From positions 1 to 30,122 of IMG/VR virus record IMGVR_UViG_3300037485_000174: DNA of 30,122 bases. One strand, given 5' to 3'. Below the pieces are notes generated by a model. It worked only from the letters and a program-made list of their open reading frames with translations. It had not been told where the DNA came from and searched no databases. Position numbers and translations under genes: made by a program. The DNA comes from a virus. This document shows, one piece after another, positions 15,795-30,122 of the stretch. The first letter of the stretch is position 1, and every line of letters begins with the position of its first letter.

Positions 15795-16178
15795 TTATTT
15801 TAGTTGTTGTTCTTGGAAGTCTATTAAGTTGTGTATGCCTTGTAATCTGTCTATGTCGTATATGTCTCTTATTCTATTTAAAAGTACGGCTTGTGGATTA
15901 GTTGTTTTTAAAACTTTGTCTCTTATCTCTTCTAGTCTTTTGTCGTCTTTGGATGCTATCTCGTAATTGTTAACTGAATGAATAACCGTTGCGTGATTGT
16001 ATCTCTTTCCTTTGCTCTTGTATATATCTGCTATACTATGTAACGTTAAATTAAAATCTTTGCGTAGTATGTAACAGAATAAACTCCTTGCGTCTACTAT
16101 TGGTCTCTTACGTGAGTTCTCAAATACATTAACTTTTAGTCTATCTTTTATTTCGTTTGCTATTAATTTGTATTCCAT
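15795..16178 (-). CDS. DnaA domain-IV-like DNA-binding protein
   Basis: The product has 127 residues. 'RKRPIVDARSLFCYILRKDFNLTLHSIADIYKSKGKRYNHATVIHSVNNYE' (residues 23-73) matches the DNA-binding domain IV of the initiator DnaA, including the HATVIHS signature whose residues read the DnaA box. The AAA+ ATPase part is absent, so the protein alone cannot load a helicase. It may bind DnaA-box-like sites in the phage or host origin, either recruiting the host replisome or blocking host initiation. The terminase genes follow 8 nt later. Confidence 0.75.
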   Translation of the reverse strand: MEYKLIANEIKDRLKVNVFENSRKRPIVDARSLFCYILRKDFNLTLHSIADIYKSKGKRYNHATVIHSVNNYEIASKDDKRLEEIRDKVLKTTNPQAVLLNRIRDIYDIDRLQGIHNLIDFQEQQLK

Positions 16179-16188
16179 TTGTTTTTTT

Positions 16189-16833
16189 TTAAAATAGTTT
16201 TTGTTGTGCTACGTGGTTATTTATTCTCTCTATTGCTTTGTCGTAATATTCTTTGTCTAATTCACAAGCGGTTAAATCAAATCCGTAATCGTGACAAGCT
16301 ATTGCAATACTTCCACTTCCTAAATGAGTGTCAAGTATTTTGTCTCCTTGTTTTGCGTATTTGTCTAAAATCCATTTGTAAAGTTCAACAGGTTTTTGTG
16401 TTGGATGTATTCTTATTTCTTTGTTATTCATATCTTTTTGTAAGGCACCGTGCCATAAAATATCAACATAATCTATACCATAACCAAAAGATTTAAAAGC
16501 AATTTCACCATTTGAAGAAGTATAATTAGTTTTATTTTTAAGCCAAAATAAACAACCACCTTTTAAACCGAAATAATTTGCACCCCATATAATTTGATTT
16601 TTTGAAACTCTAAACAATTCATTAAAATATAATTCGTTTGGTATTGAATTATCCCAATTTTTTTTTGTATAATTATTTCTTTTACTGCCAGCTTCTTTTG
16701 TTTTTAAATTAAATCTATTATCATTGCTTGCATCAATACCATAAGGCGGGTCAACAATAGCCAAGTCAAAATGCTTATCTGGATACCTTGCCATTAAAAT
16801 CATATTATCCTCATTTGTTATTGTTAGGCTCAT
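16189..16833 (-). CDS. DNA amino-methyltransferase (beta class, DPPYG type)
   Basis: It transfers a methyl group from S-adenosylmethionine to an exocyclic amino group of a DNA base. The ATG chosen (MSLTITNEDN) shares ATGA with the exonuclease stop; 10 more codons upstream are open but inside that gene. Motif IV DPPYG lies at 28-32. Motif X and I, in the order of the beta class, are HPTQKPVELYKWIL (143-156) and DTHLGSGSIAIA (168-179). The usual FxGxG is changed to HLGSG. At 214 residues it is compact, with a short target-recognition region near 40-130. No partner nuclease lies beside it, so it is an orphan methylase. The central third looks still more AT-rich than its neighbours, which could reflect recent gain. 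Confidence 0.88.
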   Translation of the reverse strand: MSLTITNEDNMILMARYPDKHFDLAIVDPPYGIDASNDNRFNLKTKEAGSKRNNYTKKNWDNSIPNELYFNELFRVSKNQIIWGANYFGLKGGCLFWLKNKTNYTSSNGEIAFKSFGYGIDYVDILWHGALQKDMNNKEIRIHPTQKPVELYKWILDKYAKQGDKILDTHLGSGSIAIACHDYGFDLTACELDKEYYDKAIERINNHVAQQKLF

Positions 16834-17540
16834 TTTGTTTTTAATTTTAAAAGTAAGTAACATTCTATAAATCTCTCTCGTGCTTTCTGCTTGTGTATTT
16901 TTTTAAATAGACTAAATACTACTCTAATATAATTATAATCGCTTAAACAGTCTTTAAATGCGTTTTGAACGTACTTTACTCCGTAGCCTTTGCAGAAGTT
17001 TACATTGTCCGCAGTATCTCCTATAATCATTTGCTCCCAAAAGTTATATCTTGCCTCTTGCTCTGTTATATTGTGATAGCATTGTTTTTTATAATGATAG
17101 TCATATATAATGCAAGGTAGTTGTTTATAGTCTTTGTCTATTGAAACTATTATTACTTCGTCTCTTCCGAATGTCTCTGTTAAGTTAGTCCAGTAGGTAG
17201 CTACTAAATCGTCTGTCTCTACTCCGTAACCTATTTTAGCATCGTATGTTTCTTTTACATAGTCTTGCAGTTCATTTAGTATTGGAGGAAGTTCTCTGCC
17301 TATTCTATTTGCTTTGTATGTTTTGGATATCTGTTTGCGAAAGTTGCCTCTTGCACCAGCAAATGTTAATACCTTATCTACTTCGTGGTCAAGTTCTATA
17401 GTATTAATGATTTTCATTACTACCTCGTTGTATTTGTCTTTGGCCTCTTCGATTTTATGATATCCGGTACACTCTGGAGATTCTTTTTGCTTGTAACAAC
17501 TGCTCCAGATTAAACTGTCTGCATCTATTAATACTATCAT
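16830..17540 (-). CDS. 5'-3' exonuclease, FEN/T7 gp6 type
   Basis: The product has 236 residues. Acidic metal ligands are all in place: D6 and D8 in LIDADSLIW, ETDD at 108-111, SIDKDYKQLP (133-142) and GDTADNVNFCKGYG (174-187). YKANR (75-79) is the conserved basic segment that holds the phosphate. The set fits the flap endonuclease/5' exonuclease family that removes RNA primers and resects DNA ends. It shares ATGA with both the coiled-coil peptide before it and the methylase after it. It could work with the ERF annealing protein in recombination-dependent replication. Confidence 0.88.
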   Translation of the reverse strand: MIVLIDADSLIWSSCYKQKESPECTGYHKIEEAKDKYNEVVMKIINTIELDHEVDKVLTFAGARGNFRKQISKTYKANRIGRELPPILNELQDYVKETYDAKIGYGVETDDLVATYWTNLTETFGRDEVIIVSIDKDYKQLPCIIYDYHYKKQCYHNITEQEARYNFWEQMIIGDTADNVNFCKGYGVKYVQNAFKDCLSDYNYIRVVFSLFKKIHKQKARERFIECYLLLKLKTK

Positions 17541-24318: not shown

Positions 24319-24504
24319 TTATATATCGTATTGTTTTAACTTCTCCAAATATAGTATAAAATCCATTGCCTCTTGTTGTGCGTGGTTAATCCAGTCTAAA
24401 CAACTTAAATCCTCTCTGTCTAGTGTTGTGTTGTATTTTTTTATTCCAACTTCTGACCGTTCTCTAAATTGCTTTATAACTGATTCTAGTACTTTGTCTT
24501 TCAT
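24319..24504 (-). CDS. Small phage protein of the 'TLDREDLS' type, 61 residues
   Basis: The product begins MKDKVLESVIKQFRERSEVG and continues KKYNTTLDREDLSCLDWINH with AQQEAMDFILYLEKLK. I recall this helical pattern (RS..GI.KY..TLDR.DL...DWL.H...E.MD...YLE) from many phages, and it resembles the N-terminal part of proteins annotated as dATP/dGTP diphosphohydrolase or MazG-like. With 61 residues it lacks a full catalytic site, so an enzymatic call is not justified. It lies 2 nt after a 38-codon gene. Confidence 0.7.
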   Translation of the reverse strand: MKDKVLESVIKQFRERSEVGIKKYNTTLDREDLSCLDWINHAQQEAMDFILYLEKLKQYDI

Positions 24505-24506
24505 AA

Positions 24507-24623
24507 CTATTTTTTTAAGTTAATTATTTTACGATATACATTATTTACGCTTTCTTTGTTTGTTCCTCTTGAATAGTAAAAATTCATAACTCTTTTAATT
24601 CTTTGATAGTTTGATGCACTCAT
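24507..24623 (-). CDS. Small basic protein of 38 residues, unknown function
   Basis: The product begins MSASNYQRIKRVMNFYYSRG and ends YRKIINLKK. It is strongly basic and helical. Its ATG shares ATGA with the preceding gene, and the next gene starts 2 nt after its stop. It is short for gene callers. DNA or RNA binding would fit the charge but is not shown. Confidence 0.62.
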   Translation of the reverse strand: MSASNYQRIKRVMNFYYSRGTNKESVNNVYRKIINLKK

Positions 24624-24943
24624 AAATTAATTTGTATCTTTCTAGTCGGACAACTCATCTTGTGTTCGCTATCTGTCTTATGGCAGTACTCACAGTAATT
24701 ACTTTGTACGCACTTTGGATACGTGCAGTAATCTAAATTACAAATCTCTCCCTCTCTTTTAACTCCGTTTAATTTACATTTGTTTGACTCTCTTCCATTA
24801 GGCCAAAACATATCACAATTATCTGCATCGCCATCTCTGTTGAATCCTCCATAACTTTGGTATAAACCTACCGGAGCAGTAAACCTATGGCAGTACTCTT
24901 TTGACGGACAAAGAAAATCTTTGCATTTTGCTATATCACTCAT
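24620..24943 (-). CDS. Cysteine-rich protein of 107 residues, unknown function
   Basis: The product begins MSDIAKCKDFLCPSKEYCHR with 'FTAPVGLYQSYGGF', a start I know from small Bacteroidota phage proteins (C...CP.K..C.R.TA...YQSY). It has 12 cysteines in all, with a second cluster CNLDYCTYPKCVQSNYCEYCHKTD near residues 68-91, and could bind two or more zinc ions. It is the first larger gene after the RNA locus. The upstream 60 nt are nearly pure A/T. A regulator or redox role is possible; none is shown. Confidence 0.7.
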   Translation of the reverse strand: MSDIAKCKDFLCPSKEYCHRFTAPVGLYQSYGGFNRDGDADNCDMFWPNGRESNKCKLNGVKREGEICNLDYCTYPKCVQSNYCEYCHKTDSEHKMSCPTRKIQINL

Positions 24944-24987: not shown

Positions 24988-25089
24988 TTATATATTAATT
25001 CTACTTTGAAGATTATAGCTGGTGAGTAAACAGAGGAAGCCTAAGAGAATAACTACTTTCGTGTTAATCCAGATATTAATATTTTTCAT
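24988..25089 (-). CDS. Membrane peptide of 33 residues
   Basis: The frame starts MKNINIWINTKVVILLGFLC and ends with polar residues (YNLQSRINI). Residues 11-23 (KVVILLGFLCLLT) form one hydrophobic span. An AGAAGG sequence lies 6 nt before the ATG, a rare Shine-Dalgarno-like site in this genome that favours translation. It is the only decent frame in this region. A signal-like or membrane peptide is all that can be said. Confidence 0.45.
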   Translation of the reverse strand: MKNINIWINTKVVILLGFLCLLTSYNLQSRINI

Positions 25090-25243
25090 TTAATACCTTC
25101 TCTCTCTGTTTTAATTCTACTTCGTTAGACCGTCGCAGTTTCGTTCACAGTTGCACCATTAGAAGCCCATTTTAGTGCTTTAAACATAAGTCAAATTGTT
25201 GTAATCTTCCCCTTAATTCCTTATGTCGATTTGTTTAGGTAAC

Positions 25244-25280
25244 AAAAAACCCTAACAAGAGGATGAGAATCTTATTAGGG
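25244..25280 (-). terminator. Rho-independent terminator ending the small RNA
   Basis: On the minus strand CCCTAATAAGA and TCTTGTTAGGG form an 11-bp stem with one U-G pair around a 9-nt loop, followed by six T. It ends both the small RNA and any read-through from the phosphoesterase gene. Confidence 0.88.
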
Positions 25281-25332
25281 TCTGTATTGATAATTGGTCA
25301 AAACCTAAATCAATAGGTCTCATCCAATTGAT
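25244..25332 (-). ncRNA. Candidate small structured RNA, about 88 nt
   Basis: A promoter lies directly upstream and a terminator forms the 3' end, with no start codon of use between them. The RNA has several exact complementary pairs: TATTGAT/ATCAATA (25309-25315 with 25285-25291), AATTGG/CCAATT (25324-25329 with 25292-25297), and GGATGAGA near the 5' end (25318-25325), which matches all but one base of the terminator loop (25261-25268). The last pair would make a pseudoknot, a loop contact with another molecule, or a switch. It resembles no RNA family I know. It could also be a leader controlling the tiny ORFs downstream. Confidence 0.6.
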
Positions 25333-25336
25333 GCAC

Positions 25337-25365
25337 CAAATATAAAAACATAATTCGAATAACAA
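25337..25365 (-). promoter_or_regulatory. Bacteroidota-type promoter of the small RNA
   Basis: On the minus strand TTG (25363-25365), an 18-nt spacer and TATATTTG (25337-25344) match the Bacteroidota consensus. It lies 26 nt after the phosphoesterase stop. The start of the RNA should be near 25332-25330, five to seven bases after the -7 element. Confidence 0.75.
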
Positions 25366-25390: not shown

Positions 25391-26227
25391 TTATAACTGC
25401 ATTGGTATTACTATTGGTAACGTTCCCTTATTTAAAAGCACTCCACAACCTATTGCTGGTTTCTTAAAATGTTTCCCATAGGCCATTGCATAACTCTTGT
25501 TGTCTATTCCACATCCCACTTGCATTCCAAAGATTCTAAAGTTTTTACCTACTATAAAATCTACATATAAATCAGAATGTAAATGTCCTTGTATTTGGCT
25601 CTGTAATTCTTTTTTCATTTTTGCTCTTGCAGTTCCTCCCTCTCCGTGGTTTATATTTACATCAAATAAATCCAGACTCTCTACAAAATCCCAGTTTGGT
25701 ACTCTTAAAACTTCTTTGTACTCTTTTATCCATCTCCTTGAAACTCCTCCGGTAAATGCTTTACGATATACTAACCTATCGTGATTGCCTATAATTACAC
25801 TTGCCTTTGGAAATACCTTATAGTACTTTTGTAGTTCGTTAATTGCTACGTCTAGTTCGTCTCCGGCAGACATTCCATCTGGGTCACTTTCGTGGTAACT
25901 TGAATAATGATTATCGATTACATCTCCGATAAAAACAACAGTACCACATTTAAACTTTTTTTGCTGCTCAAGACAAAATTCCAAATAATTAGGCAAATTA
26001 AATGGAGCGTGTAAGTCTCCAATTATTAAAATGTTATTTGGATTTCCTAAATTATAAGGCTGTAATTTTTCTAAATCTTTATTTCTAATTTTACCTATTT
26101 GCTTCCTTATAGTTTCTAATTCTGTAAAATCAGCATCTGGAAATAACTCTTTTGCTATCTGTGTATTGTTTAAATTGTATTGTATTAATGGTAAAATCTT
26201 ACTGTGTAATTCTTGATATTTAGACAT
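25391..26227 (-). CDS. Calcineurin-like metallophosphoesterase
   Basis: The product has 278 residues. Residues 1-60 look like a helical, helix-turn-helix-type start (NNTQIAKELFPDADFTELETIRKQIGKI). The enzyme part has all metal motifs: DLHAP (71-75), GDVIDN (101-106), GNHDR (147-151), His 194 in NINHGEGG and GHLHSD (214-219). Two metal ions would be held for hydrolysis of phosphate esters; substrate unknown, with protein, nucleotide or nucleic acid all possible. A terminator lies 35 nt upstream of its start and no clear promoter is seen in the short gap, so it may be transcribed by read-through or from a non-consensus promoter. Confidence 0.87.
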   Translation of the reverse strand: MSKYQELHSKILPLIQYNLNNTQIAKELFPDADFTELETIRKQIGKIRNKDLEKLQPYNLGNPNNILIIGDLHAPFNLPNYLEFCLEQQKKFKCGTVVFIGDVIDNHYSSYHESDPDGMSAGDELDVAINELQKYYKVFPKASVIIGNHDRLVYRKAFTGGVSRRWIKEYKEVLRVPNWDFVESLDLFDVNINHGEGGTARAKMKKELQSQIQGHLHSDLYVDFIVGKNFRIFGMQVGCGIDNKSYAMAYGKHFKKPAIGCGVLLNKGTLPIVIPMQL

Positions 26228-26692: not shown

Positions 26693-27154
26693 TTAAAAGT
26701 TCTCGTAATGAGTTCTGCCGTTAACTTTAACTGCTTTTAATATTTTCTTTCTGTTTTTTACTGAACTGTATGAAACGTGAATCCACTCCGGATTTTTGTC
26801 CGTTCCAAACTCCCAAATTAATTGGTCAAACTCTAGGTTCTTTTTAATGTAGTCGAATAGGTCTTTATTGCTAGGCTTCGTATTATTTCCCATATCAATA
26901 TCGATTGCCTCTCCTCTACAATGTTGGCTAGTAATACTACCTTTAATTGCTTGGTTTAAATTCATAATTCTATAACCAGACGAAATGTGAATAGGCACTC
27001 CAAAATGTTCTCTCATAGGCTCGAAAACTTTTTCTGCTAAAATTTTAAGGTTTGCAGTCTGTGCTGGAGTAGGTACATTTACGATACCTAATTTAATTGC
27101 AGTTGCAGAATAGCATAACTCCTCTAGAGTTAGATGTTTACTTATTTGTGTCAT
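26693..27154 (-). CDS. Endolysin, peptidase M15 type
   Basis: The product has 153 residues. 'HISSGYRIMNLNQAIKGSITSQHCRGEAIDID' (56-87) and 'WEFGTDKNPEWIHVSYS' (114-130) carry the zinc ligands His 78, Asp 85 and His 126 of the M15 peptidase family (D-Ala-D-Ala carboxypeptidase or L-Ala-D-Glu endopeptidase type). It should cut peptide cross-links in the host cell wall at lysis. It has no signal peptide, so it needs a holin. Its start overlaps the preceding membrane-protein gene by 17 nt. Confidence 0.9.
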   Translation of the reverse strand: MTQISKHLTLEELCYSATAIKLGIVNVPTPAQTANLKILAEKVFEPMREHFGVPIHISSGYRIMNLNQAIKGSITSQHCRGEAIDIDMGNNTKPSNKDLFDYIKKNLEFDQLIWEFGTDKNPEWIHVSYSSVKNRKKILKAVKVNGRTHYENF

Positions 27155-29063: not shown

Positions 29064-30122
29064 TTATATATAAGTTGCTGATTCTCTATTGGTCCACGCT
29101 GCGTTTGTAGCAGTTGCTATTGTAATTGTGCCACTTGCAGCTATTGTTAATCTTTTTATAGTCCATACTGCTGTTGCTTCCGCACTTCCATTGGCAGCAG
29201 TTCCACAATAGTTTATACTGTTATTTGATGAATTGTTTGCGTTCCTTCTTTCAGAAACTATTTGATTTAAATTTTTATTTTTCCAAAGTTGTGTTGCACT
29301 CTCATAAGTTAATATTTGATTGTTTGCTACGCTTGACAAAGCTATATCGTGGATTTCTGATAATTCATAACCATTTTGTATACCTACTTCAATTTGTCCT
29401 TGTGTTGGATGTGACCTTGTAACCTTACCAACATAAACTAAATGCGTTGGTGCTAATATTTTTGTTGCAGTATATGTTCCAGCAGTAACTCCACTTAAAT
29501 AAAGTTGGTCGCCCTCTGCAAATGTTGAAGTATCTAAACCGCTTAAATCCCCAATAATAACGCAGTTTCCCAATCCATTGTTTGAAATGTTTGACTGTAA
29601 CAATCCAAATGTTCGTGAACTTAAAGCATCTGTTGTAGCTAATGCTTTTGAAACTAATGCTTTGTTTCCATTTGCACCACTTATATAAACTACTGTTCCT
29701 TTTGTTAAAGTAGCACCAGTCATATTTTTAACCTCACGAACTATTGTACTTGCTTGTCCAGTAGTTGGAATATCTAAAGCAGTTATAAAAGGATTAACTC
29801 CGTCTGCTCCATTATTAGTTAGTTGACTTGTTTGTGTTACGGCTGCCGGTATAGTTGGTTTGTTTAAAATTAAAGCATCTCCAGTAGTAGCGTTCCAATC
29901 TGCATTTACATTTACTTCTGCTCCGGCAGCTATTCCAGCAAGTTTGTTTTTTTCTGTTAGTGAGTATTGCTTAAAAGTACTTCCGTCCAAAACAGTATCT
30001 TGAGTTAATACTACATCTCCTACTAAAGTATTTACAGAATTAACTGCACCTCCTCCAGTAACTTGGTTTACATTTATAGTTATTAAATTTGGAGTAATAG
30101 TTAAATTTACCGGATTGTTTGT
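29064..30122 (-). CDS. Tail fibre protein, C-terminal part (runs off the window end)
   Basis: The frame is open to 30122 and gives 352 residues. TTG at 29990 is only an internal codon. It begins with the same beta repeats and the LTEKNKLAGIAAGAEVNVNA signature as the fragment at the window start. Then come 'VREVKNMTGATLTKGTVVYISG' and 'ALSSRTFGLLQSNI' with 'GDLSGLDTSTFAEGDQLYLSG', a head-fibre or tail-fibre domain frequent in aquatic phages, and a C-terminal beta end (KRLTIAASGTITIATATN). Joined to positions 366-268 in a circle it would have about 385 residues. Confidence 0.8.
   Translation of the reverse strand, partial: TNNPVNLTITPNLITINVNQVTGGGAVNSVNTLVGDVVLTQDTVLDGSTFKQYSLTEKNKLAGIAAGAEVNVNADWNATTGDALILNKPTIPAAVTQTSQLTNNGADGVNPFITALDIPTTGQASTIVREVKNMTGATLTKGTVVYISGANGNKALVSKALATTDALSSRTFGLLQSNISNNGLGNCVIIGDLSGLDTSTFAEGDQLYLSGVTAGTYTATKILAPTHLVYVGKVTRSHPTQGQIEVGIQNGYELSEIHDIALSSVANNQILTYESATQLWKNKNLNQIVSERRNANNSSNNSINYCGTAANGSAEATAVWTIKRLTIAASGTITIATATNAAWTNRESATYI
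29996..30122. repeat. 127-bp terminal identity, copy 2
   Basis: Identical to 141-267. Upstream of the identity (29856-29995) the sequence still aligns to 1-140 without gaps at 12 mismatches. Only three of these change the protein, so the two versions look like functional alleles or paralogues. Confidence 0.85.

Follow-up and report, generated by a model that had tools for sequence, protein, structure and literature searches.

Covariation joins the terminator loop of a phage small RNA to its own 5' region at the apparent entrance of an early operon

Comparison of homologous loci shows that the locus studied here holds a phage gene for an RNA of about 89 nt, with a predicted host sigma-A-type promoter, a start at AUCAAUU and an intrinsic terminator, and that the loop of this terminator docks, as judged from covariation, on an upstream segment (J) through 7–9 bp, in the form of a long-range pseudoknot or an intramolecular kissing contact. 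That the small RNA is real and its fold under selection is well supported by the sequences compared, as is the structure. The gene occupies 89 nt of the minus strand (25332 to 25244) of the window, i.e. the whole stretch of 30,122 nt analysed (IMG/VR record IMGVR_UViG_3300037485_000174). A first-pass annotation had described a promoter, two 5' helices and an 11-bp terminator, and all of them are present on the minus strand; J (GGATGAGA) is the 5' octamer that it had matched to the nine-base terminator loop, in which the eight complementary bases are here called L3.

25337..25365, minus strand: promoter of Bacteroidota sigma-A type (TTG, 18-nt spacer, -7 box)
25365-25363, minus strand: -33 box TTG
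25344-25337, minus strand: -7 box TATATTTG, 18 nt after TTG
25244..25332, minus strand: small RNA of about 89 nt, predicted to start (+1) at A25332 (AUCAAUUGG...) and to finish with the U-run
25292..25329, minus strand: helix P1, AAUUGG (25329-25324) with CCAAUU (25297-25292)
25318..25325, minus strand: J segment GGATGAGA (RNA GGAUGAGA), partner of the terminator loop, covarying with L3
25303..25318, minus strand: helix P2, ACCUA (25318-25314), loop UUGAUU, UAGGU (25307-25303)
25309..25332, minus strand: candidate pairing of AUCAA at the 5' end (25332-25328) with UUGAU in the P2 loop (25313-25309)
25250..25280, minus strand: helix P3, the intrinsic terminator of 11 bp, CCCUAAUAAGA with UCUUGUUAGGG; in DNA letters CCCTAATAAGA (25280-25270), loop TTCTCATCC (25269-25261), TCTTGTTAGGG (25260-25250)
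25261..25268, minus strand: L3 segment UCUCAUCC, the part of the nine-base terminator loop (eight bases) that pairs with J
25244..25249, minus strand: terminator U-run (T6), kept in nearly all members

Relatives were found by a protein scan with the neighbouring phosphoesterase, which gave 71 viral loci. About 12 of these carry the small RNA right downstream of that gene, and pattern scans added more, so that 25 distinct RNAs were tabulated; leader scans added three upstream of the conserved leader A (see below), two divergent (L218, L219). The approximately 28 distinct homologues, all in metagenomic viral contigs of IMG/VR, fall into two length classes: class I resembles the RNA of the window, and class II has a longer terminator stem and a J starting with GGC.

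The test set beforehand, compensating changes in GGATGAGA/TCTCATCC, was strongly passed: J and L3 change together. The 25 tabulated homologues hold 16 J/L3 allele pairs, with J covarying with L3 across 12 distinct 7-mers. Besides the pair of the window (GGAUGAGA/UCUCAUCC) the alleles include GGACUCA/UGAGUCC, GGAUGCAA/UUGCAUCC, GGCUAGACA/UGUCUAGCC, GGGUUGCA/UGCAACCC, GGGCGUA/UACGCCC, GGAUGGAA/UUCCAUCC, GGACUGAA/UUCAGUCC and GGCUGAACA/UGUUCAGCC. Over the 16 combinations 110 of 112 cells are paired, versus 77.5±4.3 with shuffled partners (maximum 95 in 20,000). Since MAFFT puts L3 in the wrong place in part of the rows, an anchored alignment was used to count pairs column by column. In its 19 distinct rows 98.5% of the J/L3 cells are paired and 38 are doubly changed, compared to 10.5±2.6 in shuffles; the covariation score is 0.779, against 0.189±0.037 for shuffled and 0.041–0.161 for slid partners, the latter control being the more telling since it preserves relatedness. 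Complementarity of 7–9 nt between the loop and the segment separating P1 and P2 extends to L218 and L219; in L218, where P1 and P2 are both re-sequenced, the J/loop pair is GGCTGAGAA/TTCTCAGCC.

Within the genomes of the phages that carry them, the 7-mers of J and L3 occur no more often than in other genomes, and their matches there do not exceed chance. Thus the contact should lie within the RNA or between its copies, and an action on phage messages, one of the roles imagined earlier for this RNA, finds no support as far as J/L3 is concerned. Three readings of the pairing had also been offered, and the best fit among them is an intramolecular contact, a pseudoknot or a kissing interaction. 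A switch in which docking would replace the terminator stem is unlikely: the partner of J is the loop and only seldom the stem, at whose boundary J ends in most members, for which reason we reject a classical attenuator in which the stem would be destroyed. On the predicted fold, the terminator stem and the docked loop can coexist. An attenuator with a mutually exclusive antiterminator was likewise discarded, there being no conserved alternative pairing that breaks the stem; reading the sequences, a P2b/P3a antiterminator could pair in class I and fails in class II.

The third reading, a dimer contact, is quite unlikely, with the reservation that covariation does not separate intramolecular from intermolecular pairing. 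Just as improbable is its extension to dimers or rings joined from loop to 5' segment, like those of the phi29 packaging RNA, in which the many alleles would keep co-infecting phages apart. It would accommodate a complementarity that stays perfect through at least 15 allele changes (tree of 24 phages), even where the endolysin is identical or 95% identical, as well as a J/L3 helix that is more diverse in alleles, and higher in covariation score (0.78 versus 0.50), than the terminator stem. But neutral drift and recombination also yield many alleles, no link to a packaging gene appeared, and the intramolecular geometry looks possible, with a linker between P1 and the terminator that seems to measure about 5 nt or more in all members and to be longer where the stems are longer.

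The other helices are documented to different degrees. In P3, 98.8% of the cells are paired, with both sides changed in 31 cells and a covariation score of 0.498. The pairing of P1 with its own partner beats every one of 20,000 permutations, and its compensatory changes comprise AAUCGG/CCGGUU (L005), AAUUA/UAAUU (L004, L007 and L010), AAUUAGGC/GCCUAAUU (L084) and AAUUAGGG/CCUUAAUU (L076). CCUA/UAGG of P2 is invariant in the 25 tabulated members, though loop lengths differ, and the candidate pairing of the P2 loop with the 5' end is invariant or G-U in 19 of 19 sequences; both are therefore uninformative in the 19 rows. They are supported by the sequences of divergent members, in which P2 is replaced by AAUCGGA/UUCGGUU (L218) or ACCUAU/AUGGGU (L219), and the 5'-end contact by GCAA/UUGC (L218). 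This contact is a possible alternative or addition to P1/P2. The GG of P1 overlaps J, and J takes up nearly all of the space from the 5' strand of P1 to that of P2, with hardly any unpaired base left, so the 5' strand would be pairable nearly throughout, with P1b, the terminator loop and P2b. As P1b and L3 can both pair with the two or three bases at which J begins, a rearrangement is likely when the loop emerges. The fold predicted without the loop contact reaches -32.2 kcal/mol, versus -17.9±3.3 for shuffles (z -4.3).

Of the promoter, which had been called near-consensus, the -7 box is conserved and the -33 element is not: the box (TAnnTTTG) precedes the small RNA in 31 of 31 promoter/RNA variants, and TTG at normal distance is found in about one third of them and is not conserved. 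In 27 of the 31 variants the gap between the box and the conserved block is exactly 4 nt, the four bases themselves being variable. The Flavobacterium -7 box occupies positions -12 to -5 (PMC9723704), which places +1 at the fifth base after TTTG, i.e. at the conserved AUCAAUU. These 27 variants make a strong comparative case for selection on a transcript whose 5' end lies at AUCAAUU. The motif TTG-N17-20-TAnnTTTG is expected by chance about 1.3 times per strand in a 30-kb window and is thus weak evidence on its own, but it gains weight from the box in all 31 variants and the exact gap in 27.

We also searched for chance occurrences of the whole arrangement, defined as TAnnTTTG followed within 150 nt by a strong terminator whose loop makes at least 7 Watson-Crick pairs with the first 45 nt. 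On both strands of 2.42 Mb of phage DNA the matches were all members of this self-docking terminator RNA family, and 4.85 Mb of shuffled sequence gave none. An arrangement confined, in these sequences, to the family and a conserved start at +1 support the first-pass view that the structured RNA stands alone, having a promoter and a terminator of its own.

Essentially all genes of the window are on the minus strand. The small RNA is preceded by lysis genes and followed by a leader and small early genes, with NinG, an Erf-like annealing protein and others further on:

26693-27154, minus strand: M15 endolysin, a lysis gene upstream of the small RNA
25391-26227, minus strand: phosphoesterase, grouped with the lysis genes, upstream of the small RNA
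24999..25238, minus strand: leader A, about 240 nt, a structured RNA that is conserved and non-coding, after the small RNA and before the first early ORF

Homologues in related phages sit 3' of phosphoesterase or M15 endolysin genes, and at loci with readable flanks early or replication genes come next on the same strand. L108 and L119, from two other phage contexts, have 22 nt and 38 nt, respectively, between the U-run and the next start codon, the genes concerned, assigned by inspection, looking like phage replication genes. Most members share one syntenic neighbourhood, so that the conserved position partly reflects common descent. Elsewhere in the window, proteins carrying a DnaA C-terminal DNA-binding domain (15795-16178, minus strand, a small protein, PF08299 exactly at the Pfam cut-off) and a 5'-3' exonuclease N-terminal domain (16830-17540, minus strand, PF02739) lie close to the terminase genes. 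The record ends (1-300 and 29823-30122) are near-copies of about 300 bases with point differences and no exact terminal overlap, probably a repeated tail-fibre segment.

The RNA had also been suggested to be a leader for the tiny ORFs that follow. We do not regard these ORFs (20 and 33 codons) as genes, since relatives lose the frame and keep RNA helices, and their place is taken by a second structured RNA, leader A; a role as a cis leader of the early operon is likely. The leader A alignment (11 phages) has a mean column identity of 86% and 11 compensated pairs. The two ORFs after it (24620-24943 and 24319-24504) have no Pfam match. Other phages carry at the same place leader B (about 335 nt; L008:915-1274) or leader C (about 300 nt; L011:4977-5290), which can each be aligned among phages, are unrelated to leader A and to each other, and are each conserved, with a predicted fold and some compensated pairs, and a fourth type was seen once (L088, after 1974). 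None of the four matches Rfam, and a blastn search of leader A against named phages gave no match. From their sequences the leaders, of 240–335 nt, seem to be RNA families independent of each other. The window holds a second promoter-terminator unit immediately behind the NinG gene (23276-23170, minus strand): TTG-N19-TATATTTG (23276-23247), then a 15-bp terminator-like hairpin (23211-23176) and at least 8 T; it is possibly another small RNA or leader.

With about equal measures of confidence and doubt, we infer that the self-docking terminator RNA stands at the entrance of the early operon and gates read-through. The promoter would fire once the phage DNA enters the host; most polymerases would halt at the terminator, releasing a compact RNA with tied-up ends, and the remaining ones would continue through the structured leader to the early genes. 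Docking would have to wait for the loop to exit the polymerase, about when the latter is at the U-run, so that the contact between J and the loop could influence the choice between termination and read-through. The sequence of the J/L3 helix would be free to vary because, under this proposal, only pairing matters. No -7 box lies between the terminator and the first ORF in 20 of the 28 listed loci, and in the window the next upstream box of the same type with a normally spaced TTG is 2.5 kb off, inside a gene, which favours an operon gate. The early genes could instead use a phage promoter of an unrecognised type, and no conserved antiterminator was seen at these loci.

The compact fold is explained as well by a stable RNA acting in trans, and as an account of the locus this reading is nearly as good as the operon gate. 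Released at the start of infection, the RNA would use the pseudoknot merely for compactness and stability, as in RydC, and its targets would be a host protein (polymerase, ribonuclease or defence protein) or host messages reached through AUCAAUU and P2. We hold this possible, if somewhat doubtful. It agrees with an RNA that has its own promoter and terminator and whose conservation begins at +1, with conserved segments flanking a hypervariable helix, and with downstream leaders being exchanged while the small RNA persists; RydC indeed needs its pseudoknot for small-RNA stability (PMC4337610). However, the RNA sits directly upstream of early/replication genes, on the same strand, in three contexts, an obvious conserved exposed seed is absent, and the phages' own DNA holds no target of J/L3. 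The operon gate and an action in trans may also be combined, the released RNA being recognised by a protein through its conserved, not its variable, segments.

A mere transcription boundary, with an insulating late/early terminator, a cryptic promoter and an inert RNA, is very unlikely. Most members do lie between lysis and early genes and the strong terminator is kept, but a plain terminator needs neither a 5' end conserved from +1, nor P1 and P2, nor a covarying loop contact, and L108 and L119 are away from the late/early boundary.

The window proteins match those of Flavobacterium phage 11b and other Flavobacteria phages, and the uncultured phages carrying the small RNA appear to infect Flavobacteria-like hosts. 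Flavobacterium phage 11b and Nonlabens phage P12024L lack the small RNA downstream of their phosphoesterase genes, and blastn of the latter against named phages and plasmids gave no match. Model R1, which scores 99 bits at the small RNA of the window, found nothing at E 1e-4 in 396 Flavobacteriales and 395 Bacteroidota genomes, a weak negative because the filters were strict, hence insensitive, and a positive-control genome was lacking; five pattern matches in genome contigs were without promoter or terminator and were set aside as chance. At the gathering score Rfam 15 recognised no family in the window or in 12 relatives, and matches up to E=10 were chance ones only, among them ToxI on the wrong strand. 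The impression that the RNA fits no known family is thereby borne out, also by the literature searched, and as far as could be searched the family has not been described before. L107 and L124 were excluded, the 5' 25-mer pattern being present and the terminator-loop partner missing: on the minus strand both have ATCAATTGGCTGCTAACCTATTGAT, then a long, differently structured-looking sequence without that partner, either by chance or as a relative of the 5' module. Upstream of the small RNA of L218 (about 150-230 nt, minus strand) lies a tRNA-gene-like sequence (TTTCAGTATAGTTTAATGGATAGAATTGCCGATTACG...).

On the endolysin tree (24 phages) we counted at least 15 changes of J allele and at least 6 of leader type, approximate values because several inner branches are weakly supported. 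L080 and L093 have identical endolysin sequences and differ in J and leader; L002 and L008, nearly alike in promoter region and phosphoesterase, have RNAs of different classes and different leaders. Judged from these comparisons, the class of the RNA and the type of leader recombine among phages. It is unlikely, though conceivable, that J/L3 is an allele-specific code, i.e. a per-phage address, through intermolecular pairing or gate specificity, that keeps relatives from interfering; such a code would change when the RNA is swapped as a cassette, along with structured leaders unrelated to one another.

Little is known of the small RNAs of Bacteroidota phages. Here a helix joins a terminator to its own 5' end and changes in sequence faster than its surroundings while complementarity stays, which makes J/L3 a clear natural experiment on RNA structure. 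The small RNA marks the apparent entrance of the early operon in a phage group with otherwise few recognisable promoters, and the conserved structured leader RNA that comes after it belongs to one of at least three unrelated types. Should the contact control read-through, phage early genes would have in it a switch that works with little or no protein.

Several known systems invite comparison. In lambdoid phages the pR' promoter gives the short terminated 6S RNA, ending at tR', and the late genes beyond depend on read-through, the gate being opened by the Q protein. The order of promoter, short terminated RNA and genes beyond the terminator is alike, but the present RNA precedes early/replication genes and no antiterminator protein was identified. 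The put RNAs of HK022 are structured RNAs at the start of an early phage transcript and act on the polymerase so that it passes later terminators; the position at the very start of the early transcript is shared, whereas here the terminator is part of the structure. The packaging RNA of phi29 is a small phage RNA with two covarying complementary segments that pair intermolecularly through loops. The covarying pair is the likeness; fold and genome context differ, and the J/L3 pairing is known from covariation. The c4 antisense RNA (RF01695) is also a phage RNA with paired specificity segments, but its partner lies in another message while J/L3 has none outside the RNA; 6S-flavo (RF01685) is likewise a Bacteroidota small RNA. 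Neither model matches, at the Rfam gathering score or up to E=10.

A type III toxin-antitoxin RNA of the ToxI kind was rejected: the RNA is a single unit without tandem repeats, the two following ORFs are without Pfam match, and the ToxI match in Rfam was on the opposite strand and far below threshold. RNA-based anti-CRISPRs (Racrs) mimic the CRISPR repeat of the host (PMC10651486); the conserved 16-mer of the small RNA is found in 6 of 396 Flavobacteriales genomes, as single copies and in no array, the true host of the phage being possibly another. RydC, a small RNA of Enterobacteria whose pseudoknot is needed for its stability, differs in being a host RNA, bound by Hfq and with an exposed 5' seed, whereas the 5' end of the phage RNA is predicted to be paired; in the latter the 5' segment has its partner in the terminator loop, and no sequence relation was seen. 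RydC (PMC4337610) nevertheless resembles the phage RNA in being short, with its own promoter and terminator, a U-rich 3' end and a pseudoknot fold, the last being indicated for the phage RNA by covariation.
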